A DNA stretch of 33,637 nt from Anaerolineae bacterium (GTDB lineage Bacteria; Chloroflexota; Anaerolineae; JAADDB01). The stretch's first letter is position 1, and every line of letters starts with the position of its first letter. The DNA lies in NCBI GenBank assembly GCA_015486845.1, contig WFQU01000117.1:1-33637 (forward strand). The letters are read 5' to 3'. Below, piece by piece: positions 3,749 to 18,356 of the stretch. A program made the position numbers and the translations under genes. The notes beneath the pieces are model-generated. The model was not told the origin of the DNA, did not search any database, and saw only the letters and a list, made by a program, of their open reading frames with translations.

Positions 3749-5485
3749 TCAGCCCTGCTTGGATTGCGGCAACGACCGCAAATAGCGGCGCACCTCTTCT
3801 GGTTCGCTCAGCTTGAGCACTTCCGTGCTGATTTTCTGGGCATCTTCATAGCGCCATTGGCGGATCTGCGCTTTCACAGCGGGAATGGACGGAGGCGCCA
3901 TGCTTAGTTCGTCGACGCCCAAGCCCAGCAACAATGGTGCCGCCAAGGCATCACCGGCCAATTCGCCGCAGATGCCTACCCAAATGCCGGCGGCGTGTGC
4001 AGCGATCACCACTTGTTGGATGAGCCGCAGCACGGCCGGATGCATAGCATCCGCCATTTTGCCGATTTCTGGGTGTGTGCGATCCGCAGCCATGGTGTAT
4101 TGCGAAAGATCATTCGTGCCGATGCTAAAAAAGTCGATTTCGGGTGCTAAGACATCTGCTAAGACCGCAGCAGCTGGTATTTCTACCATGATGCCCACTT
4201 CGACATCCTGGGCGTAAGGTAAGCCCTGCTTTTCCAGCGCCTGGCGGGCTTCCGCCAAATACTTTTTTGCTGCGCGGACTTCGTCCAAAGCGGCTACCAT
4301 AGGGAACATAATTTTGATGCCGGTGCTATTGGCGCCGGCCCTGAGGATCGCTTTCAGTTGCGTGACGAATAGATCCGGGTTGGCCAAAGAGAGTCGAATC
4401 CCTCGTTTGCCCAGAAAGGGGTTGGCCTCGGCGGGCAGGCGCAGATAAGGCAACGGTTTGTCACCCCCGATGTCCACCGTGCGGAAAATGATCGGCCGTC
4501 CGGCCATTACTTCCAAGTAAGGCCGGTATGCCTCGACTTGCTCTGCTTCGTCCGGCGGCGTGTCACGCTGCATGTAAAGGAACTCGGTGCGCAGCAAGCC
4601 AACACCCTCGGCGCCGAGCTGTACGGCTTGTTCCGCTTCTACTCGTCCATTGCCACCCAAATTAGCGCCTATTTCGATGGTGCGGCCATCTGGCGTTTGG
4701 GCTGGCTGTTGGCCAGCGCGGCGCGAAGCCTCCTGTTCGACCCGGTCACGCTCCATAGCGGCGCGGTAGCGAGCCAACGTTTCTGCTGAGGGATCGAGGT
4801 AAACAAGCCCCGCTTTGCCGTCTAAGAGCATTGCATCGCCAGTGTGTACGGCGTCCAAGAAAGCTGCTGGCATGCCGACTACCGCCGGTATGCCTAATCC
4901 GCGGGCCAAAATGGCAACGTGGGAAGTCTGGTTTCCTTGCACGGTGCAGAAACCCAACGTCAGTTCTTTGGGCAAGAGAATCGTTTGGGACGGGGTGAGG
5001 TTCTCGGCTACGATGATGGATGGTTGGTCCGGCTCATTGACATCTGTTGAGCGGCGGGTCAAAATGCGCAGAACCCTTTGTCCCACATCACGTAAATCGA
5101 CGGCCCGGGCGCTGAAAATGGGGTCGTTGAGGGTTTCTAACAAAGCAGCTTGTTGTTCGAAAGCAGCTTGCCACGCTTTTGGCGCGCTTTCCCCCTGTTC
5201 GATGGCGGTGTCCACTTGCTGCAGAAGCGTCGGATCGGATAAAAACATCTCGTGCGCTTCGAAAATAGCTGCTTTTTCTTTACCTAAACGTTGCAGCGCT
5301 TTTTCGTGCAATTGATGGATTTCTGTGTGCGCAGTGGCTAACGCTTGCTGGAGCCGTTCTTTTTCTTCCGCTGGGGATGCCGTAACGTTGGTCTCTGCGA
5401 TGTCAACGACCTGTGCCAGCACAAACGCTGGCGCGATAGCAATCCCTTTTGAAGTGGGATTGCCGTGAAAAAGTTTCTCTGTCAT
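3749..5485 (-). CDS. ptsI: Phosphoenolpyruvate-protein phosphotransferase (PTS Enzyme I)
   Basis: 578 aa; phospho-His motif GNQTSHVAILARGLGIPAVVG and C-terminal PEP-binding motifs (GIGTNDLSQY-like SIGTNDLSQYTMAADR, GICGELAGD). Confidence 0.96.
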   Translation of the reverse strand: MTEKLFHGNPTSKGIAIAPAFVLAQVVDIAETNVTASPAEEKERLQQALATAHTEIHQLHEKALQRLGKEKAAIFEAHEMFLSDPTLLQQVDTAIEQGESAPKAWQAAFEQQAALLETLNDPIFSARAVDLRDVGQRVLRILTRRSTDVNEPDQPSIIVAENLTPSQTILLPKELTLGFCTVQGNQTSHVAILARGLGIPAVVGMPAAFLDAVHTGDAMLLDGKAGLVYLDPSAETLARYRAAMERDRVEQEASRRAGQQPAQTPDGRTIEIGANLGGNGRVEAEQAVQLGAEGVGLLRTEFLYMQRDTPPDEAEQVEAYRPYLEVMAGRPIIFRTVDIGGDKPLPYLRLPAEANPFLGKRGIRLSLANPDLFVTQLKAILRAGANSTGIKIMFPMVAALDEVRAAKKYLAEARQALEKQGLPYAQDVEVGIMVEIPAAAVLADVLAPEIDFFSIGTNDLSQYTMAADRTHPEIGKMADAMHPAVLRLIQQVVIAAHAAGIWVGICGELAGDALAAPLLLGLGVDELSMAPPSIPAVKAQIRQWRYEDAQKISTEVLKLSEPEEVRRYLRSLPQSKQG

Positions 5486-5496
5486 AAGTATCGTCC

Positions 5497-6465
5497 TTAT
5501 AAATCATTGTCCGCCAATTCCAAAACACGGGCGGCGGCATCACTATCGGTAATCAAGCAGTCAATGACATGACTGCGCAAAGCGCCCCAGATGGCAGAGG
5601 CTTTTTCTCTTCCCCCGGCGACGCCGATAACCAGCGGAATACGGTGTAGTGCCTGCCAGGAAACGCCAATAAGCCGATGGTGGATATCCAGATCCAGAAG
5701 CTGGCCTTGGGTATCGTAGAAATAGCCACAAACATCCCCGACACCACCCCGTTCTTTGATGGCTTGGAGATCTTTCTCGGTAAGGTGCTTAGCTTGAAAT
5801 AAGCTGGAAAGCGTGGGAGGCCAGACGCCGCCGATGCCAACCAGGGCAATGTCGGATTTAGCAGCCAGTTCTATGGTTTCCTGAATAACGGGCTGCCGCA
5901 CGATGGCGTCATGGGAAGCAACGTCGCTGGCCAGCAACGGTGCGGGCAAGTATTTGTATTTGCCGCAGAGCGTTTGGGCTAACCAGCGGGTCAGGTCTGG
6001 GCCGTCTAAGATAGGGTTGACGGAGCCTGCCGTGCCGACCAGTTGTACTACGGTTACCCGCTTTTGCCGGGCAGTGCGCAGGGCACTGACAACTTGGTAC
6101 ACGCCGGTGCTCCAGGAGATGCCTAGAATCATGTTGCTCTTGAGTAGATTCATCAGCCGGTTAGCAGCTAAAACGCCTAAGCCTTGGATAATTTGGGCAT
6201 AGCCCCTGTTCTCCGACGCCATAACTAAAGCTTCTTTGATAGCGAAACGGCGTTCTATGGCAGTCTGAAGTTGGCCCACTTCACTCCAGACACCGCGAAT
6301 ACGAATGTCAACGATACCGAGCTCGCGCGCTTCTGCCAGCCAGCGGGAAATCTGTGAGCGCGAGACACGCATCTGGGCAGAGATATTGGCCTGGGTGAGG
6401 TTTTCCATGTAATATAATTGGGCAACTTTGGCCAATTTCAGTAAATGAGGGTCCCTGGTTGACAT
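5497..6465 (-). CDS. SorC/DeoR-type sugar-binding transcriptional regulator
   Basis: 322 aa; N-terminal HTH (LTQANISAQMRVSRSQISRWLAEARELGIVDIRI) followed by a SorC-type sugar-phosphate-binding domain; starts 186 nt after HPr and ends 11 nt before ptsI. Confidence 0.9.
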   Translation of the reverse strand: MSTRDPHLLKLAKVAQLYYMENLTQANISAQMRVSRSQISRWLAEARELGIVDIRIRGVWSEVGQLQTAIERRFAIKEALVMASENRGYAQIIQGLGVLAANRLMNLLKSNMILGISWSTGVYQVVSALRTARQKRVTVVQLVGTAGSVNPILDGPDLTRWLAQTLCGKYKYLPAPLLASDVASHDAIVRQPVIQETIELAAKSDIALVGIGGVWPPTLSSLFQAKHLTEKDLQAIKERGGVGDVCGYFYDTQGQLLDLDIHHRLIGVSWQALHRIPLVIGVAGGREKASAIWGALRSHVIDCLITDSDAAARVLELADNDL

Positions 6466-6949: not shown

Positions 6950-7345
6950 TTATAGTATCTTCCTCATATTACTTGCAGCTTCGGCAGCAGTGTTGACCGC
7001 CTCGAGGCTGTGTCCTAAAGAAGCCTCTACGGCAGCGACGATAGCGCCCTCGACTAATGGTGCTTCGCTCATTTTAATATTCTGCTGTTGTTCTTCCGTT
7101 AACATCTCTATAGCCATCTGCGTACTCATCACTGCGCTGCCTAAATCCAGCAGCACTAATACCCCGTCAGGGGCATAAGCTTTTTGCAAGGCAGTAAAAA
7201 TACGCTCTGCATTCGTCCCCATAGTTTGGTCATCGACGCCGCCAGCGGCAGCGATTAGCACACGTTTTTGGCTCATTTGTTCGGCCATTTCTTTGACGCC
7301 GACTGCGACTTTGGCGCTATGGGATACGATGACAATACCTACCAT
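6950..7345 (-). CDS. dhaM: PTS-dependent dihydroxyacetone kinase phosphotransferase subunit DhaM (EIIA-Man-like single domain)
   Basis: 131 aa; GIVIVSHS active-site His, LLDLGSAVMSTQMAIEML, APLVEGAIVAAVEASLG signatures; 4-nt gap to HPr start. Confidence 0.93.
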   Translation of the reverse strand: MVGIVIVSHSAKVAVGVKEMAEQMSQKRVLIAAAGGVDDQTMGTNAERIFTALQKAYAPDGVLVLLDLGSAVMSTQMAIEMLTEEQQQNIKMSEAPLVEGAIVAAVEASLGHSLEAVNTAAEAASNMRKIL

Positions 7346-8004
7346 TTATGGATCTCCTTTGTTGCTAGGCAGTGGGGGCAATTTTTGACTTCGTGAATTG
7401 CTCCTGCTGCCGGAATGTTGTTGTCTGTGGACGATTCTTTGTAGCCTACTGTACCGCATGCGCAAGCATACCAACCGTCCGGTGCCTTGTCAAAATCGAA
7501 CCGCTTTAATGTGAGATCAATCTCTTCGCTGTCCATGTGCCAACGGGCATTGGTGAAAAGGCGTTGTGCGCCGATGCTGGTTAGTTTTTGGTAGTAGGTG
7601 GCGAAATGCTGGCAGTGTCTCATCAACAAAACACCTACTGTGACATCCGCAGGGAATGGGAAATCCAGCGCATTGGCACAGATAACTTGTAAATTGCGCG
7701 GTAATTCCGTTCCGGCTTGTTGTAAGAAAGTGGCCACCAGTTCTGGAAAGACTTCGATAGCGTATACTCGTTTGACCCGTGGCGCTGCCGCCGCTGCCAG
7801 CCGGAAATCGCCGGCACCGATGTCCAAGAGCACATCGTCTGGGTGCAGCCGTTCCACGACAAACTTATAGATAGCATCGTCATACGGCGCAAACCACGCC
7901 TCCCAATCTTGCAAATCGTGCCGGCGTGAAAATACACCTAAGTCTAAGTCTTCCCTGAACTGGATGGCATCCTTTTCCCAATTAGTCACTTGCTGCGTAT
8001 CCAT
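7339..8004 (-). CDS. Class I SAM-dependent methyltransferase-like protein with C-terminal Cys-rich (Zn-ribbon-like) tail
   Basis: VLLDIGAGDFRLAAAAA SAM-binding motif I; C-terminal CACG...CPHC. Overlaps dhaM by 7 nt. Confidence 0.75.
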   Translation of the reverse strand: MDTQQVTNWEKDAIQFREDLDLGVFSRRHDLQDWEAWFAPYDDAIYKFVVERLHPDDVLLDIGAGDFRLAAAAAPRVKRVYAIEVFPELVATFLQQAGTELPRNLQVICANALDFPFPADVTVGVLLMRHCQHFATYYQKLTSIGAQRLFTNARWHMDSEEIDLTLKRFDFDKAPDGWYACACGTVGYKESSTDNNIPAAGAIHEVKNCPHCLATKEIHKW

Positions 8005-8267
8005 TTGATTAATGTGTAAGCAAAACCGAAAACCAGCCAGGTACTGAACAATACAATGGCCGTGACTCTAATTTGGGTTCCCCAACTAAGGTCTTTTGGT
8101 GCAGAATAGAGCAAAAGAGCCACTAACCCTATGCTGATTACAATCATCACTTTGATGCCGGCCCGAGGTGTGATGAGTGGTTGTAGTTCCACCTCTTTCG
8201 TTGGCTCTTCGGCTTTATCATTTGCTTCAACAGGCTGTACCAATTTATGCTTTTCCTTTTGCGCCAA
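7986..8267 (-). CDS. Small membrane protein with two predicted TM helices
   Basis: 93 aa; charged N-terminal ~40 aa followed by two hydrophobic segments; 15-nt gap from the SdhD-like gene and 19-nt overlap with the methyltransferase. Confidence 0.65.
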   Translation of the reverse strand: MAQKEKHKLVQPVEANDKAEEPTKEVELQPLITPRAGIKVMIVISIGLVALLLYSAPKDLSWGTQIRVTAIVLFSTWLVFGFAYTLIKWIRSK

Positions 8268-8282
8268 AACACCCTCTCTTTG

Positions 8283-8618
8283 TTACAAAATGGACACGAA
8301 TAGCCAAAGGCCATATGCGAACACTAACACGCCTATGATGGATAGTCCCCATGTCACAGACCGATCGGTTGACTTGGAAACACCAAAATCTAACACCAAC
8401 GCTCTGATTCCAGCCATAGCATGAAAAATCACTGAGGCTAAAAATAGAATTTCTATAACCAGGACGATGGGGTTAGAGAGATACTGTATGATGTCCTGGT
8501 AGGTCAAAAGACCGCCAGCCGCAAAATGGTTAACAATCATGTGTAGGGTGAGTAAAATTACCAGCAACAAGCCGGTAAGCGCTTGCCAAAGCCACGCTAA
8601 ACTTCCTCGTTGTGCCAT
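8283..8618 (-). CDS. Succinate dehydrogenase-type membrane anchor subunit (SdhD-like)
   Basis: Three hydrophobic segments with candidate heme His (LLTLHMIV, VIFHAMAGIRALVLD). ATG at 8618 has a purine-rich RBS; the ORF track extends to a TTG at 8636. Confidence 0.85.
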   Translation of the reverse strand: MAQRGSLAWLWQALTGLLLVILLTLHMIVNHFAAGGLLTYQDIIQYLSNPIVLVIEILFLASVIFHAMAGIRALVLDFGVSKSTDRSVTWGLSIIGVLVFAYGLWLFVSIL

Positions 8619-8632
8619 TTTTTCTCTCTCCC

Positions 8633-9037
8633 TCAATGAAACATCAAAATAGCCGCTATAAGCGACACGAAAACAGTTAGCACGATTACAGTCCAGAACA
8701 TGATTTTATGCTGTCTGACGCCTATGTTGAGTGCCATGAGCATGAGCCGTAAGCCGTTCAATCCGTGGTAGATGATGACGGCCACTAAACCTACCTCTAA
8801 CAAAATGAGGATAGGACTCTCCATGAACTGAACCATATTGTCATAAGCGGCGGCACCTTGGGTAAGCGTCCTCAAGACATAGAAATGCAAGAATAAATAG
8901 AGGACTAACAATATCCCCGTGAGACGATGCAACGCAAACGCCCAAGCACCTACACCTTTCTTAGTGACACTAAACCATCTCTCCCAATTCTTTTTGGGCA
9001 AGAGGGGCTCCGGTCTTTTATATTCTTCTGCCAACAT
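8633..9037 (-). CDS. Succinate dehydrogenase cytochrome b-type subunit (SdhC-like)
   Basis: 134 aa; FALHRLTGILLVLYLFLHFYVLRTL and IIYHGLNGLRLMLM SdhC-type motifs. Confidence 0.88.
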   Translation of the reverse strand: MLAEEYKRPEPLLPKKNWERWFSVTKKGVGAWAFALHRLTGILLVLYLFLHFYVLRTLTQGAAAYDNMVQFMESPILILLEVGLVAVIIYHGLNGLRLMLMALNIGVRQHKIMFWTVIVLTVFVSLIAAILMFH

Positions 9038-9049
9038 AATGCCCTCCTA

Positions 9050-9757
9050 TTAGAACAGATGTTTCAGTTTGTCGGAAATTAGATGCTGGCGCAGATACAT
9101 GATCATGCTGCCGGGATCTACGTCGTTAGGACACACTTCGCTGCACTCCATGGCCGAATGGCAACGCCAGCAACCTTCTGCGTTATCCACCATTTGCAAG
9201 ATGGCGGGAACATCCTGACCGCGTGGTTCTTGCACGACCCGCGCTGCCGCGGCTAAAGCGGCCGGTCCTAAATAGGCCGGATCTGTGGCCACAACCGGGC
9301 AAGCGGAAAGGCAAAGCCCGCATTCGAGACAGCTTTCGTAGCGTGTATAACTGCCGACTTCTTCCGATGGCTTTCCCTCTGGCAAGTACTCGCTTTGGCG
9401 TATTAACGGCATTTCCACGGGTGCGTATTTATTGAAAAACGGTTCCATACTCACAACAAGGTCGCTGACGAGCGGCGCATTGCGCAACGGCTCGACGGTC
9501 ACTTCGGTGGTGCCTAACGCCAGGACATTGGCCACACAGGCTAAGACTTCTTTGCCGTTGACCAACATGCCGCAGGTGCCGCAGGAACCGTGATGACAGG
9601 AATGCCGATAAGTCAAGGTCTCGTCATTGATCCGCAATTTCTCCAGCACGTCCAGCACTGACATTTGCTCGTCGACTTCGATCTTGAACGTATCATAGCG
9701 AGGTGGGTCGATGACCCCGGGCTTGTAGCGGAAAATCTTAAAGGTTACTTCAGTCAT
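9050..9757 (-). CDS. SdhB/FrdB-type iron-sulfur protein (2Fe-2S, 4Fe-4S, 3Fe-4S motifs)
   Basis: SCHHGSCGTCGMLVNGKEVLAC (2Fe-2S), CLECGLCLSACPV (4Fe-4S), CWRCHSAMECSEVCPNDVDP (SdhB third cluster). Start set at MTEVTFKIF (9757), 2 nt after the glpA stop; the longer ORF start at 9820 overlaps glpA. Confidence 0.94.
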   Translation of the reverse strand: MTEVTFKIFRYKPGVIDPPRYDTFKIEVDEQMSVLDVLEKLRINDETLTYRHSCHHGSCGTCGMLVNGKEVLACVANVLALGTTEVTVEPLRNAPLVSDLVVSMEPFFNKYAPVEMPLIRQSEYLPEGKPSEEVGSYTRYESCLECGLCLSACPVVATDPAYLGPAALAAAARVVQEPRGQDVPAILQMVDNAEGCWRCHSAMECSEVCPNDVDPGSMIMYLRQHLISDKLKHLF

Positions 9758-9759
9758 TT

Positions 9760-10935
9760 TCACACCCCCCGCCGGTAATAAGCAGTGTGGGGCAACAAGA
9801 CAACCTCTCGGGTACGACATGCTACGTCGAGCCCTAATTTTTCCACGACGACATTGGCGGTTACTTCAGCCATGCCCCGTGCTGTGGTTGCTTTGCCGCC
9901 GGTGATGGTTACAAAGCCTATGACATTGTCGCGATCTTCATGATCGAAACACTTGAAGGTCCTGCTCAACTCACGCCCGGTCGTGGCGCCGCTTTCCGAT
10001 CCAATGAGGGGTCGGGCTGCTGCCCAAGCCGCTCGCATTGGCGCATTTTTGACGGCCGGCACAAGCATAGCGCCCATTTTGTACATGAGCTCTATATGTT
10101 CTTTCTTCATTTCCAGTTGGTCTGGATCTTTCACGACCCAGGAACTGGTGCCGATGACCGAAAGGGTCCGCTGTGGCAAGATGATGTCGCCATCGCCAGA
10201 GCGGTGCATGCGGTTAAGCACCATGTTGTTCCAGCGCCCGTAAACGGCGACTAGAACGCCAGGGGATGGCTGCATAGGCACATGAACGCCGGCCATAGCT
10301 GCGATTTTATCGGACCAGGCACCTGCTGCGTTCACCACCAGGTCGGCGCCGATGTCGTAGGTTTTTTCTGTGACGTGATCGCGTACCCTGACCCCCACAA
10401 CAGTTTTATCTTTCATTAGAAGTTTGGTGACTTGCGTGTAAGTCTTGATAACAGCGCCGTTGTGCTGCGCCGTGGCCAGAAACCGCAGGGGAAGCCGCAT
10501 GGCGTCCATGGTGCCATCCGGCACCTCTACGGCTGCTTTGACGGCCGGGTTGAGGTTGGGCTCGCGTTGTAATGCTTCTTGGGTTGTGATCTCTTGATAC
10601 GGAATAGCGCATGTCTCTAAACCGGCCAGAAAGGCGTCGTGATAAGCCATATCCTCATCGGTGATGGCGACAAAAAGACCGTTGTTCAACTCGAAAGTAC
10701 CAGGTGCAATTTTGCGCAGAATCATGTTTTCTTGAATACATTCCTTGGCCGATTCCTGGTCTTTCACCGCGTAACGCGCGCCGCTGTGCAATAATCCGTG
10801 GTGCCGGCCGGTCGTGCCAGAAGTGACCTCTCCGCGTTCCACGATTGTGACACGCACGCCGCGCAGCGTCAGGTCATGGGCTAACGCTGCACCTGTGGCC
10901 CCACCTCCCACAATGACTACATGGGGCTTTCCCAT
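9760..10935 (-). CDS. glpA: FAD-dependent glycerol-3-phosphate dehydrogenase, GlpA-type catalytic subunit lacking the C-terminal BFD-like domain
   Basis: 391 aa; VVIVGGGATGAALAHDL FAD motif; GTTGRHHGLLHSGARYAVKDQESAKECIQEN closely matches E. coli GlpA as recalled; ends after the DAO-type domain. Confidence 0.92.
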   Translation of the reverse strand: MGKPHVVIVGGGATGAALAHDLTLRGVRVTIVERGEVTSGTTGRHHGLLHSGARYAVKDQESAKECIQENMILRKIAPGTFELNNGLFVAITDEDMAYHDAFLAGLETCAIPYQEITTQEALQREPNLNPAVKAAVEVPDGTMDAMRLPLRFLATAQHNGAVIKTYTQVTKLLMKDKTVVGVRVRDHVTEKTYDIGADLVVNAAGAWSDKIAAMAGVHVPMQPSPGVLVAVYGRWNNMVLNRMHRSGDGDIILPQRTLSVIGTSSWVVKDPDQLEMKKEHIELMYKMGAMLVPAVKNAPMRAAWAAARPLIGSESGATTGRELSRTFKCFDHEDRDNVIGFVTITGGKATTARGMAEVTANVVVEKLGLDVACRTREVVLLPHTAYYRRGV

Positions 10936-11263: not shown

Positions 11264-11300
11264 ACATAAAAAATAAGGGCGGGGAAATTCCCCGCCCTTA
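11264..11300 (-). terminator. Intrinsic terminator downstream of glpK
   Basis: TAAGGGCGGGGAAATTCCCCGCCCTTA near-perfect palindrome (11274-11300), followed on the minus strand by TTTTTTATG. Confidence 0.88.
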
Positions 11301-11479
11301 CTGTCGTTTCTGGAGTCAGCACACGCTCCTCGCCCGACCCTTTATGTCATCAAGGAGCCGCACGGCAAGCACAAGAACTGTGAACTTTCCTGTCTCCAGG
11401 TCTGATAAAGAAAGCGGTCCGGTCTACGGCACCGAGAATCCCTTTACAAGCCTAACTTTGAGCTTTGTGGGATGATTTT

Positions 11480-12994
11480 TTACTCAACCCAATTAAATGT
11501 GCGCTCAACAGCTTTCAACCAACCTTTGTACAGGCGGTCCCTTTCTTCATCGCCCATCTTGGGTTTCCAGGTATGAGCAATTTGCCAATTCGTCCTCAAG
11601 TCATCCAGGTTGTTCCAGAAACCAACGGCCAGCCCGGCGGCATAAGAAGCGCCTAATGCTGTCGTTTCGGCAACCTGCGGTCGCACCACTGGCACGCCGA
11701 GAATATCAGCCTGGAACTGCATCAAAAGCTCATTGTAAACCATCCCACCGTCGACTTTCAACGCTTTCAGGTTGACGCCAGAATCTTTGTTCATGGCATC
11801 CAAGACCTCGCGTGTCTGAAAAGCGGTTGCTTCCAAAGCCGCTCGGCCAATGTGTCCTTTATTGATGTAGCGGGTGAGACCTACGATAACGCCGCGAGCA
11901 TCAGATCGCCAGTATGGTGCGAACAGACCGGAGAAGGCAGGTACGAAATAAATACCGCCGTTGTCTTCCACGCTCTTGGCTAACTCTTCGACCTCGGCTG
12001 ACGTGGAAATCATGCCCAGGTTATCCCGCAGCCACTGTACCAAAGCGCCGGTAATAGCGATGGAACCTTCCAAAGCGTAGTTGGCCGGCGCGTCGCCGAA
12101 TTTATAGGCTAACGTCGTCAATAAACCGCTCTTGCTCTGCACTGGCTTCGTGCCGGTGTTCAACAGCATGAAGCAGCCGGTACCATACGTGTTCTTCGCT
12201 TCACCAACACTGTAGCAGGTTTGGCCGACCAAAGCAGCTTGCTGGTCACCTAAAGCGCCGGCTACAGGAATGGCCATGCCAAACGGGCCATCTTTAGGCG
12301 TGTAGCCGTAAACTTTCGGATCACTGGAAGGACGAATCTCTGGCATCATTGATCGCGGAATGCCCATCACTTTCAGCATGTCCTCGTCCCAGTCCAAGGT
12401 CTCCAAGTTCATAAGCATGGTGCGGCTGGCATTGGTGACATCGGTCACGTGTGCGCCGCCATTGGGCCCACCGGTCAACCACCAGATTTCCCAGCTATCG
12501 ATGTTGCCGAAATAAGCGTCACCTTTTTCAGCATCTTCGCGCAGTCCGGGCACATTTTCCAACATCCATTTGATCTTGGGGCCGGAGAAATAGGTCGCCA
12601 GCGGCAAGCCAACTTTGGTGCGGAAGCGATCCTGGCCGCCATCTTTGGCCAACTCGTTGCAAATCTTGTCGGTGCGGGTATCCTGCCAAACAATGGCATT
12701 GTAATACGGTTTACCCGTCTTTTTGTTCCAGACCACGGTGGTTTCGCGCTGGTTCGTCACACCAACGGCTGCCAGTTCGGATGCATCCACGTGTGATTTT
12801 TCCAGGGCGCCTTTGATAACATCTTGGGTCCTGGCCCAAATTTCCATCGGATCATGCTCGACCCAGCCGGGCTTGGGATAAATCTGCTCGTGCTCCATCT
12901 GATGCGACCCAATTACCTTGCCTTCATGGTCGAAGATCATGAAGCGGGTACTGGTAGTTCCTTGATCGACAGCTCCTACATATTTCTTTGTCAT
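11480..12994 (-). CDS. glpK: Glycerol kinase
   Basis: 504 aa; [53 protein letters not shown]; retains the glycerol-binding Arg-Glu (QRET) and Tyr (TYFSG) positions. Confidence 0.97.
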
Positions 12995-13037: not shown

Positions 13038-13676
13038 TCACACTTCTTTGTGATTCCAAACTTTTTCTGCACTTTGAATCAGAAGATAACTGGATGTTGC
13101 TCCTGGATCCTGGTGATTCGCACTGCGCTCACCCAAATAACTGGCTCGTCCTTTGCGTGCGACCCATGGTATAGTAGCTTTCATCCCTTCCTCAGCAGCG
13201 ATCGTAGTCTTTTCCAAGGCCACGGATAAGGTGTCGCCGTTCGTGACTGCTTTCTGAAAAGCCTCCACAGCCGGTGTCCAGGCATCTACCATGGTCTTGT
13301 CACCTGGGACAGCTTTTCCTCTCTGTTTGATGCCTTCTAAAGCAGCCTGAAACAACTTTAGAACGTCTTCTTCGGAAAGTTCATTTTTGTTTCCGGCGGC
13401 CATGCCCATGCGCAGGAAAAGCGTGCCATACAGCGGACCGCTGGCCCCACCCACGGTGGAAACTAAAGCCATACCTACCTTTTTCAAGATAGTCCCTATG
13501 TCTTTATCTTCGACGCTTGGTAGTTGAGCCATGACAGCTTTGAAGCCACGTTGCATGTTGATGCCGTGGTCGGCATCGCCAATGGCAGCATCTAATTCGG
13601 TGAGGTACGTTTCGTTGGCGTCAACAACATCGGCATAGTGCTTGATCCAGTTCAGCACGTCTTCTTTGGTGACCAT
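13038..13676 (-). CDS. dhaL: Dihydroxyacetone kinase ADP-binding subunit DhaL
   Basis: 212 aa; AAIGDADHGINMQRGF Mg/ADP motif, VGGASGPLYGTLFLRMG, PGATSSYLL. Confidence 0.95.
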   Translation of the reverse strand: MVTKEDVLNWIKHYADVVDANETYLTELDAAIGDADHGINMQRGFKAVMAQLPSVEDKDIGTILKKVGMALVSTVGGASGPLYGTLFLRMGMAAGNKNELSEEDVLKLFQAALEGIKQRGKAVPGDKTMVDAWTPAVEAFQKAVTNGDTLSVALEKTTIAAEEGMKATIPWVARKGRASYLGERSANHQDPGATSSYLLIQSAEKVWNHKEV

Positions 13677-13701: not shown

Positions 13702-14703
13702 TTACATTCCCCACCGCAGACCGGGTGTGTGCACCGGCGCGTCCCAGTATTTAATCATTTCGTCATCAGCGCGCAACAAAGTGATGGAGAAACCAGCCAT
13801 TTCCAAGGACGTAATGTAGTTGCCGATGAGATTTCGTTCGATTTTGATTCCTTTACCTTGGCAGATCTGCGCTAAGCGGCGGTAAGCAACGTACAACTCA
13901 ATGAGTGGTGTGCCGCCCATGCCATTGACCATGGCAATGATCCGATCGCCGGATTTGAATGGCAAGTCGGTTAAAATAGCGTCTGCCATCATATCCACGA
14001 CTTCATCGACAGGTTTTATTTTCATGCGCTCGCGCCCTGGCTCGCCATGGATACCGATGCCGATTTCCATTTCATCGTCGCCAAGCTCGAAGGTCGGCTT
14101 GCCGGCTACCGGAACGGTGCAAGAGGTCAATGCCATGCCCATGCTCCGGCCGTTTTCGTTGACTCTGTTGGCCAGTGCTGTGAGTTCTTTCAACGGCATG
14201 CCCGCTTCCGCCGCGCCGCCAGCAATCTTTTCCACGAATACCGTCACGCCCACGCCGCGACGTCCTTGCGTGTAAAGGCTATCTTGCACAGCTACATCGT
14301 CATTGGTAACCATAGAAGCGACTTCGATGCCATCTGCGCCGGCCATCTCTGCTGCCATTTCGAAATTCATGACATCGCCGCTGTAGTTTTTGACGATGTG
14401 TAGAACGCCTGCGCCGCCGTTAACCGCTTTGGTGGCATCGTAAATCTGGTCCGGTGTTGGTGAAGTGAATACTTCGCCGGGGCAAGCTGCATGCAACATG
14501 CCGATCCCTACATAGCCGCCGTGGAGCGGTTCATGGCCGCTGCCGCCGCCGGAAACGATACCGACTTTTCCTTTGACAGGTGCATCAGCTCGCACAATGT
14601 AATTGGGAGCAAAGTGCACGCGTACCAAATCTGGATGAGCGAAAACAATACCTTCTAGCTCTTCCTTTACAACATCTTCTGGCTTATTGATTAGTTTTTT
14701 CAT
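13702..14703 (-). CDS. dhaK: Dihydroxyacetone kinase substrate-binding subunit DhaK
   Basis: 333 aa; [41 protein letters not shown] (candidate DHA-binding His). Confidence 0.96.
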
Positions 14704-14858: not shown

Positions 14859-15659
14859 TTATTCGCCTTCTGTCGGCAGGAACGGCATAATAAACCAATC
14901 ATACATAAAGGCGCCGACGGCCCCACCAATTAATGCGCCGGTAACAGGCGGTCCGATCCAATACCAACCGCTGAAAAGTCCTTTTGTGCCTACGATCGCA
15001 CCAAAGATGCGAGGCCCAAGGTCACGGGCTGGGTTGATGGCGTATCCACTGGGCCCGCCAAGTGATAAACCAATGGCCATAACCAAGAAGCCGACTAACA
15101 ACGGCCAAAGATTGGCGCCAACGCCAACATTCTTGGCATCGACAATGGCGTAAATACCCATAATCAGCATGGCAGTACCCACGATCTCAGCGATGTAGGC
15201 ATTCCATATAGGATAGGTTCCTAATGCGGTTCCGCTCGTTGCGCTACCCCAGAAAGCTTGTCCGAAAACAGAACCTGGCCCTGTGCACCAAACGTTGGGC
15301 AAACCAGCTTTGACTAAGCCCTCAAAGTAGACAAGATAAACGCCTAAGGCGCCTAAGAAAGCACCAATCATCTGAGCAGCCCAGTATACAAGCATCTTGC
15401 CCCACGGCATACCGCGTTTGATCGCAGCAGCAAACGATACGGCCGGGTTGATGTGTGCACCGGTGACGCCACCGGCGATGTACACTGCCACGGCAACTGC
15501 AAAGCCCCACCCTAAAATAATGGTGTTCCAGTCATAGCCGGGAGCTGCTAATCTTGGGGCTAAACCAACGTTGGCCACAACGCCATCGCCAAATAGAATC
15601 AGAACAAAAGTCCCTACGAGCTCAGCAACGAACTCGCCCCACAAGGTGTTTTTCTTCAT
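14859..15659 (-). CDS. glpF: Glycerol uptake facilitator (aquaglyceroporin)
   Basis: 266 aa; NPA motifs TGAHINPAVSFA and SGYAINPARDLGPR, the latter with the Asp typical of glycerol facilitators. Confidence 0.95.
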   Translation of the reverse strand: MKKNTLWGEFVAELVGTFVLILFGDGVVANVGLAPRLAAPGYDWNTIILGWGFAVAVAVYIAGGVTGAHINPAVSFAAAIKRGMPWGKMLVYWAAQMIGAFLGALGVYLVYFEGLVKAGLPNVWCTGPGSVFGQAFWGSATSGTALGTYPIWNAYIAEIVGTAMLIMGIYAIVDAKNVGVGANLWPLLVGFLVMAIGLSLGGPSGYAINPARDLGPRIFGAIVGTKGLFSGWYWIGPPVTGALIGGAVGAFMYDWFIMPFLPTEGE

Positions 15660-16940: not shown

Positions 16941-18356
16941 ATGTCCGATCGCTTGACCGTGGTCATTGACCAGGGAACCCACGCGACCAGGGCCCTGGCC
17001 ATCGATCAACAGGGCCGTATACGCGCTTCAGCCTGGCAAAAAGTGGCTTTACATCGTTTGGGTCGGGAAATGGTGGAGCAAGATGCTGAAGAGATTGTGC
17101 GTTCGGTGTTGCAAGTGCTGAAAACAGTGTTGGCGGATCCGGAAGTCGTGCGGATGTCGATTGCACAGGCCGGCCTGGCCACTCAGCGTTCCACGGTCGT
17201 GGCCTGGGACCGTGAGAGTGGCCAGCCGTTAGCGCCGGCGCTCAGTTGGCAGGACCGTCGCACGGCGCATTGGCTGCAGCGGTTGCAGCCATATCAAGAA
17301 GAGATCAAACAGCGCACCGGACTTCCTTTGTCGCCCCATTATGGCGCCGGCAAATTGCGCTGGTACCTTGATCACGTTTCTATTGTTCGCCAGAAATTGA
17401 GCGGGAAGCGGCTGGCTATGGGCCCGTTGGCCAGTTTTCTCCTCTCCCGACTGCTGGAAGGACAGCCTTTGGTCGTTGATCACGCTAATGCGTCCCGCAC
17501 GCAACTCTGGAATATCGCCACTTGTGATTGGGATCCCTGGCTTTTAGACTTATTCGGCGTGCCGGAGGAAGCGCTACCCCATTGCCGGCCTATTTCCTCT
17601 CTTTACGGCGTTCTGCGCGGCACGGATATTCCGCTGTTGGCCGTGAATGGGGATCAAAACGCGGCGCTCTATGGCTGGGGGCAACCCCGTGGCGATACGG
17701 CCATCGTCAATTTGGGCACAGGGGCTTTTGTTCTGCTGCCGACGGGCAATGAATTGATACGTCACCCTCGCCTGCTTAGTGGCATTACCAATAGCAGCGA
17801 GACGGAGCGCTCGTATACTCTTGAAGGCACCGTCAATGGCGCCGGTGCAGCGCTTTCCTGGGCTGCCGAGCAGTGGCAAATCCCCGATCTCATTGCCCGG
17901 CTGCCCGGTTGGTTAGCCGAAGAAAACGAGCCGCCGATTTTTCTGAATAGCATTGGCGGTTTAGGCTCTCCCTGGTGGCAGACCGGGCCGGTGCCGGCCA
18001 TTGTCGGCGAGGGCAGCCTTGGACAAAAAGTGGTCGCGGTGGTGGAGAGTGTCTTGTTCTTATTGCAGGCGAATATCGACGCCATGGCCGAGGCCGGTTT
18101 GAACATCGATCGGCTGCAAGTCAGCGGCGGCCTGGCCCGGCTGGACGGATTGTGCCAGCGGTTGGCCGATTTGACTGGGTTGCCGGTGTACCGTTCCGTC
18201 GAAACAGAGGCAACGGCCAAAGGAATCGCCTGGCTGGCTGCCAGCGGCCGGGGCCGGTGGGGTGCAAGTGCGGCTGAAAGTGTGTTCTCGCCGAGAGGAA
18301 ATGGTGCGCTCCAAGACCGCTACCGACAATTTTGCCGCCTGATCGTTGCGGAATGA
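16941..18356 (+). CDS. FGGY-family carbohydrate kinase (divergent glycerol kinase paralog)
   Basis: 471 aa; VVIDQGTHATRALAID, LATQRSTVVAWDRESG, NGDQNAALYGWG, NLGTGAFVLLPTG; AAGGAGG RBS. Confidence 0.92.
   Translation: MSDRLTVVIDQGTHATRALAIDQQGRIRASAWQKVALHRLGREMVEQDAEEIVRSVLQVLKTVLADPEVVRMSIAQAGLATQRSTVVAWDRESGQPLAPALSWQDRRTAHWLQRLQPYQEEIKQRTGLPLSPHYGAGKLRWYLDHVSIVRQKLSGKRLAMGPLASFLLSRLLEGQPLVVDHANASRTQLWNIATCDWDPWLLDLFGVPEEALPHCRPISSLYGVLRGTDIPLLAVNGDQNAALYGWGQPRGDTAIVNLGTGAFVLLPTGNELIRHPRLLSGITNSSETERSYTLEGTVNGAGAALSWAAEQWQIPDLIARLPGWLAEENEPPIFLNSIGGLGSPWWQTGPVPAIVGEGSLGQKVVAVVESVLFLLQANIDAMAEAGLNIDRLQVSGGLARLDGLCQRLADLTGLPVYRSVETEATAKGIAWLAASGRGRWGASAAESVFSPRGNGALQDRYRQFCRLIVAE

Follow-up and report, generated by a model that had tools for sequence, protein, structure and literature searches.

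The closest described counterpart of the locus reported here is the GlpA-SdhBCD complex proposed for Thermofilum-related archaea, in which glpA is followed by sdhB, sdhC and sdhD (PMC11962113, Commun Biol, April 2025, Fig. 9b). The locus of the Anaerolineae bacterium shares with the Thermofilum pendens type the gene order without sdhA, a GlpA clade apart from the canonical, GlpBC-linked one and a predicted membrane transfer via SdhBCD (PMC11962113). The system of T. pendens and its relatives is, however, archaeal and was proposed from synteny and phylogeny only (PMC11962113). The same study states that, in bacteria, canonical glpA is consistently accompanied by glpBC (PMC11962113). The GlpABC complex of E. 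coli has a homologous DAO-domain GlpA, the same residues at the glycerol-3-phosphate (G3P) and FAD sites and a role in glycerol catabolism, but the present system lacks its BFD Fe-S domain, GlpB and the CCG-domain protein GlpC. GlpD and GlpO belong to the same flavoprotein superfamily and catalyse the reaction assigned here to GlpA, but they are single-subunit enzymes with another C-terminal domain. On the side of complex II, the type A di-haem succinate:menaquinone oxidoreductase Sdh2 of M. smegmatis (6lum), which is the best structural relative of both anchors, SdhC and SdhD, has the three-cluster SdhB and all four haem ligands of our system; its flavoprotein, in contrast, is SdhA rather than GlpA, and the SdhB clades are separate. 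Finally, the thiol:fumarate reductase TfrB and CCG-type complex II join SdhB to a CCG module, as does one variant locus described below (L242), whereas the locus analysed here has SdhC and SdhD anchors and no CCG protein.

The window, i.e. the whole analysed stretch of 33,637 nucleotides, contains four minus-strand genes in the order GlpA, SdhB, SdhC and SdhD, running from position 10935 down to 8283. The first codes for a GlpA-type FAD flavoprotein of 391 aa, a short form consisting of the DAO domain only (9760..10935, -; domain scan). It matches TIGR03377 over profile positions 1-378 of 530 with 451.7 bits, which is below the cut-off of 552.8 because the C-terminus is missing. After a gap of 2 nt follows an SdhB-type protein of 235 aa with three Fe-S clusters (9050..9757, -; dhsB, TIGR00384, 194 bits, cut-off 88) and, after a further 12 nt, an SdhC-type membrane anchor of 134 aa (8633..9037, -; TIGR02970, 76 bits, cut-off 52). 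The last gene codes for an SdhD-type membrane anchor of 111 aa (8283..~8618, -; Pfam Sdh_cyt, 49.6 bits, cut-off 25.8). The gene order and gaps given in an earlier note on this DNA are exact, and the profile matches agree with its assignments. The note had also described GlpA as occupying the flavoprotein position in the absence of SdhA, GlpB and the CCG-domain protein GlpC. Indeed, no sdhA, glpB or glpC was found within the window; SdhA belongs to a separate succinate dehydrogenase (SDH), and in the whole genome a CCG-domain protein was met only once, as a frame of 695 aa on a different contig.

The cassette is set within a glpF-dhaKL-glpK / dhaM-ptsHI locus for glycerol and dihydroxyacetone. 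Upstream, on the same strand, lie genes for a glycerol facilitator of the MIP channel family (glpF, 14859..15659, -; family match), DhaK (Dak1, 13702..14703, -) and DhaL (Dak2, 13038..13676, -), both from the domain scan, and glycerol kinase (glpK, 11480..12994, -; TIGR01311, 752 bits). An intrinsic-terminator-like hairpin of 14 pairs with a T run is located between glpK and glpA (11272..11302, -). Since this terminator-like hairpin is strong, glpA-sdhBCD probably begins a transcript of its own. Directly after sdhD, a small membrane protein is encoded (7986..8267, -) that gave no family match and was seen next to close relatives only; it could be an extra anchor peptide. The next genes code for a methyltransferase-like protein with a C-terminal CxC...CPxC motif (7339..8004, -) that is recurrent in glp/dha operons, and for DhaM, the phosphoryl donor subunit of PTS EIIA-man type (6950..7345, -; domain and family match). 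They are followed by an HPr-like ORF, a SorC-type regulator with sugar-binding domain (5497..6465, -; domain scan) and, on reading of the sequence, a ptsI-like gene for PTS enzyme I (3749..5485, -). Homologues of the methyltransferase-like protein, in which the C-terminal GWYAC(x)CG...CPxC is conserved, were seen at about 58 loci, in glp/dha operons of the SdhBCD, EtfBA and GlpBC types of GlpA alike. On the opposite strand, the window contains a second glycerol-kinase-like FGGY kinase (16941-18356, +), divergent from glpK with 297 bits to TIGR01311 (cut-off 590) and followed by a transporter-like gene.

The cassette combines the ligands of complex II, i.e. those of a three-cluster SdhB and of bis-histidine haem anchors, with the absence of an SdhA/FrdA-type flavoprotein. 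In SdhB, the ligands are C54, C59, C62 and C74 for the [2Fe-2S] cluster, C143, C146, C149 and C209 for the [4Fe-4S] cluster and C153, C199 and C205 for the [3Fe-4S] cluster. All of them, including four cysteines at the [2Fe-2S] cluster, are 100% conserved among 61 GlpA-type SdhBs. In SdhC, H51 and H91 align with HisC47 and HisC87 of M. smegmatis Sdh2, and in SdhD, H26 and H66 align with HisD65 and HisD107; these four ligands, for two haems b, are 98-100% conserved. GlpA, for its part, ends right after the DAO domain and has no BFD [2Fe-2S] domain, a point missed by the earlier note. The same scan detected Fer2_BFD in E. coli GlpA and in the GlpBC-linked GlpAs of the class.

The cassette very probably encodes a dedicated membrane-bound glycerol-3-phosphate:menaquinone oxidoreductase. 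This reading is built on the observed gene order and its conservation, the ligands, the co-occurrence, the separate clades and the separate complete SDH, and from these we infer the physical complex, its substrate, the direction of the reaction and the type of quinone. The FAD of GlpA would oxidise G3P, the product of the glycerol kinase encoded nearby, to dihydroxyacetone phosphate, and the electrons would pass through the [2Fe-2S], [4Fe-4S] and [3Fe-4S] clusters of its own SdhB paralogue and then via haem bP and haem bD of the SdhC/SdhD anchor to menaquinone. GlpA would thus take the place of SdhA, and SdhBCD that of GlpBC and of the BFD Fe-S domain of GlpA. Three points count against such an enzyme. 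Di-haem anchors are the type serving succinate-to-menaquinone transfer, and for the transfer from G3P to menaquinone such an anchor is thermodynamically unnecessary, because G3P is a stronger reductant than succinate. Hence it is only as a hypothesis that we propose that the membrane potential might, via the two haems, help electrons to enter a menaquinone pool that is already reduced, as it does in di-haem SQRs. Further, since SdhA and GlpA belong to different flavoprotein families, the docking surface for GlpA would have to differ from that for SdhA. Lastly, one clade has a solo SdhB, with SdhC matches far below cassette level.

The earlier note had proposed to check the glpA-sdhBCD linkage in relatives, and it is conserved. 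A scan of 85,462 species yielded 295 SdhB relatives; among the best 80 of these, GlpA is encoded directly upstream in 70, mostly after glpK, while two are cut by a contig end and eight are unlinked. The cassette is present in many families and several classes of Chloroflexota, including the isolates Levilinea saccharolytica, Thermanaerothrix daxensis and Leptolinea tardivitalis. It is also carried by a MAG with the Bacillota label (L084), which has relatives within its phylum; a 'Dormiibacterota' MAG was not taken as evidence for a second phylum, as its phylum returned the same matches as Chloroflexota. Across 249 genomes of the class, GlpA-type SdhBs adjoin GlpA, SdhC and SdhD wherever the flank suffices, with the exception of one family. 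At a threshold of 590 bits for the short-GlpA profile, 47 of these 249 genomes scored above. Short GlpA is present in all 46 class genomes with GlpA-type SdhB, and GlpA-type SdhB in 46 of the 47 short-GlpA genomes (hypergeometric 1e-49, uncorrected for genome relatedness). The remaining genome, G065, was rejected as an exception, both of its GlpA copies lying at contig ends. Where sdhB is unlinked, the same GlpA is encoded elsewhere in the genome (9/9). Solo GlpA-type SdhB loci without anchors are L062, L063, L064, L097, L099, L102, L122, L127 and L129, and in genomes of this kind GlpA often adjoins a LacI-like regulator. As the nine solo-sdhB genomes keep GlpA and contain only SdhC matches far below cassette level, the GlpA-SdhB pair is, judged by gene content, the most persistent core of the cassette.

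These patterns bear on the possibility that GlpA and SdhBCD are merely co-regulated and do not form one enzyme, GlpA having another acceptor and SdhBCD another flavoprotein. Such an arrangement would fit clade f4, in which sdhB occurs alone without dedicated anchors, as well as the Sulfolobus GlpA-like enzymes that reduce quinones unaided in vitro (PMC11962113). We nevertheless consider it unlikely in view of the one-to-one co-occurrence of GlpA and SdhB. In addition, pairwise distances of GlpA correlate with those of SdhB (r 0.86) and SdhC (0.76), but only weakly with those of GlpK (0.26), even though glpK is encoded next door, and the SdhB-linked clade lacks both the Fe-S domain of GlpA itself and GlpBC. 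In the GlpA tree, the SdhBCD-linked and unlinked GlpAs form one clade (45 rows, SH-aLRT 99), and the partner type tracks the clades, i.e. SdhBCD-linked plus unlinked, EtfBA-linked and GlpBC-linked. Both the GlpA and the SdhB tree were built quickly and contain some long branches, so that details within clades are unsure.

According to a further alternative, sdhBCD would belong to an ordinary succinate dehydrogenase or fumarate reductase with sdhA elsewhere, next to glpA by accident. SdhB, SdhC and SdhD do each match SDH families. The genome (3.28 Mb, 98% complete), however, carries a complete second cluster, sdhC-sdhD-sdhA-sdhB, on contig C150, the SdhA of which passes TIGR01816. Accordingly, the check proposed in the earlier note for a separate complete SDH turned out positive, and the case it had set against its own reading, in which the cassette holds the only SDH subunits besides an orphan sdhA, did not occur. 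Nor do the two SdhBs of the genome group together: as the earlier note had suggested to examine, the cassette SdhB falls into a clade apart from SDH, and one branch with SH-aLRT 100 separates 57 SdhA-linked SdhBs, including those of E. coli and of the genome's own SDH, from 62 GlpA-type ones (53 GlpA-linked and nine unlinked). The residues P119, D184, D187 and R193 (E. coli numbering), near-universal in SdhA-linked SdhB, are lost in GlpA-type SdhB, which has gained the group-specific residues H52, H55 and E70 in the [2Fe-2S] loop. Loss of the Q-site tryptophan was rejected as a marker of GlpA-type SdhB, as SdhA-linked SdhBs of the same groups vary there too. A search for SdhA in 49 cassette genomes found at least eight with none or with only ~200-bit, 34-39% identical flavoproteins (G052, G140, G182, G208, G028, G062, G090 and the Leptolinea tardivitalis isolate, G260); some of these absences may be assembly gaps, although G140 is rated 100% complete. 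Together with the linkage kept in many families and the co-occurrence that holds without linkage, these findings rule out an ordinary SDH with displaced sdhA for practical purposes and leave this alternative with very little probability. A chance neighbourhood of glpA and sdhBCD is ruled out by the conserved linkage and the co-occurrence. Among the SDHs, the SdhBs of L068 (G177) and L245-L255, which are SdhA-linked in the order sdhA-sdhC-sdhD-sdhB, were among the top-scoring ones against the GlpA-type profile.

It is equally hard to maintain that the flavoprotein, though resembling GlpA, has a different hydroxy acid or an amine as its substrate, so that the complex would not be a G3P dehydrogenase. 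The score of GlpA below the TIGR03377 equivalog cut-off would speak for this, but is due to the missing C-terminus, and the positions common to E. coli GlpA and GlpD (R54, Y55, R308, R325 and K348) are kept in at least 99% of 126 homologues. Going by GlpD structures, these residues presumably line the G3P site. Moreover, most cassettes have this gene placed after glpK, and here it lies amid glpF, dhaK, dhaL and dhaM. The GlpD-like gene of the genome is a different one, located on contig C120, and the GlpA of the window neither matches GlpD models best nor has the C-terminal GlpD domain. At L021 (429-2063, + and 2105-3841, +), the genome's GlpD directly follows an FAD-linked oxidase that, on reading, resembles alkyl-DHAP synthase, a pairing that makes a link to ether lipids possible.

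Other exit modules were found next to GlpA-type proteins. In L243 (529-2325, -), SdhB, SdhC and SdhD are joined in a single natural fusion ORF next to GlpA, and L242 (372-3416, -) encodes GlpA, a GlpA-type SdhB and a CCG-domain (GlpC/TfrB-like) protein, with no SdhC or SdhD in view. A different short GlpA is encoded directly after EtfA in five genomes of the class (G059, G048, G024, G121 and G077; loci L193, L195, L201, L202 and L203; at L203 the flank includes EtfB too). This arrangement suggests a third exit route, from a G3P dehydrogenase to ETF; literature searches found no GlpA-ETF pairing. Tentatively, GlpA may be a plug-in flavoprotein with at least four exit modules (GlpBC, SdhBCD including the B-C-D fusion, SdhB plus CCG, and EtfBA), which lacks a BFD domain of its own wherever a different module stands in, and the di-haem anchor of the SdhBCD form might make G3P oxidation responsive to the membrane potential. 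If true, this would be an energetic role undescribed for any G3P dehydrogenase.

The earlier note had presented the subunit swap as not known to be described. Its novelty does not hold, as GlpA-SdhBCD had already been proposed for Thermofilum archaea (PMC11962113), whereas the core inference of the note, that GlpA feeds a wire and anchor of SdhBCD type, finds strong support in the conservation, the co-occurrence without linkage, the clades and the separate SDH. In our literature searches, no bacterial GlpA-SdhB was found and the term 'GlpA-SdhB' was met only in PMC11962113; the wide bacterial spread, the absence of the BFD domain, the co-occurrence without linkage and the further partner modules thus appear new. 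The bacterial cassette qualifies the statement that bacterial glpA is consistently found with glpBC (PMC11962113), and in Chloroflexota many genes annotated as 'succinate dehydrogenase' probably code for glycerol-3-phosphate enzymes. The cultured hosts Thermanaerothrix daxensis, Levilinea saccharolytica and Leptolinea tardivitalis make the system testable, Leptolinea, without a close SdhA, offering a clean background. The Fe-S wire and anchor of complex II would be usable in bacteria by a flavoprotein of an unrelated family, and thus beyond one archaeal group.
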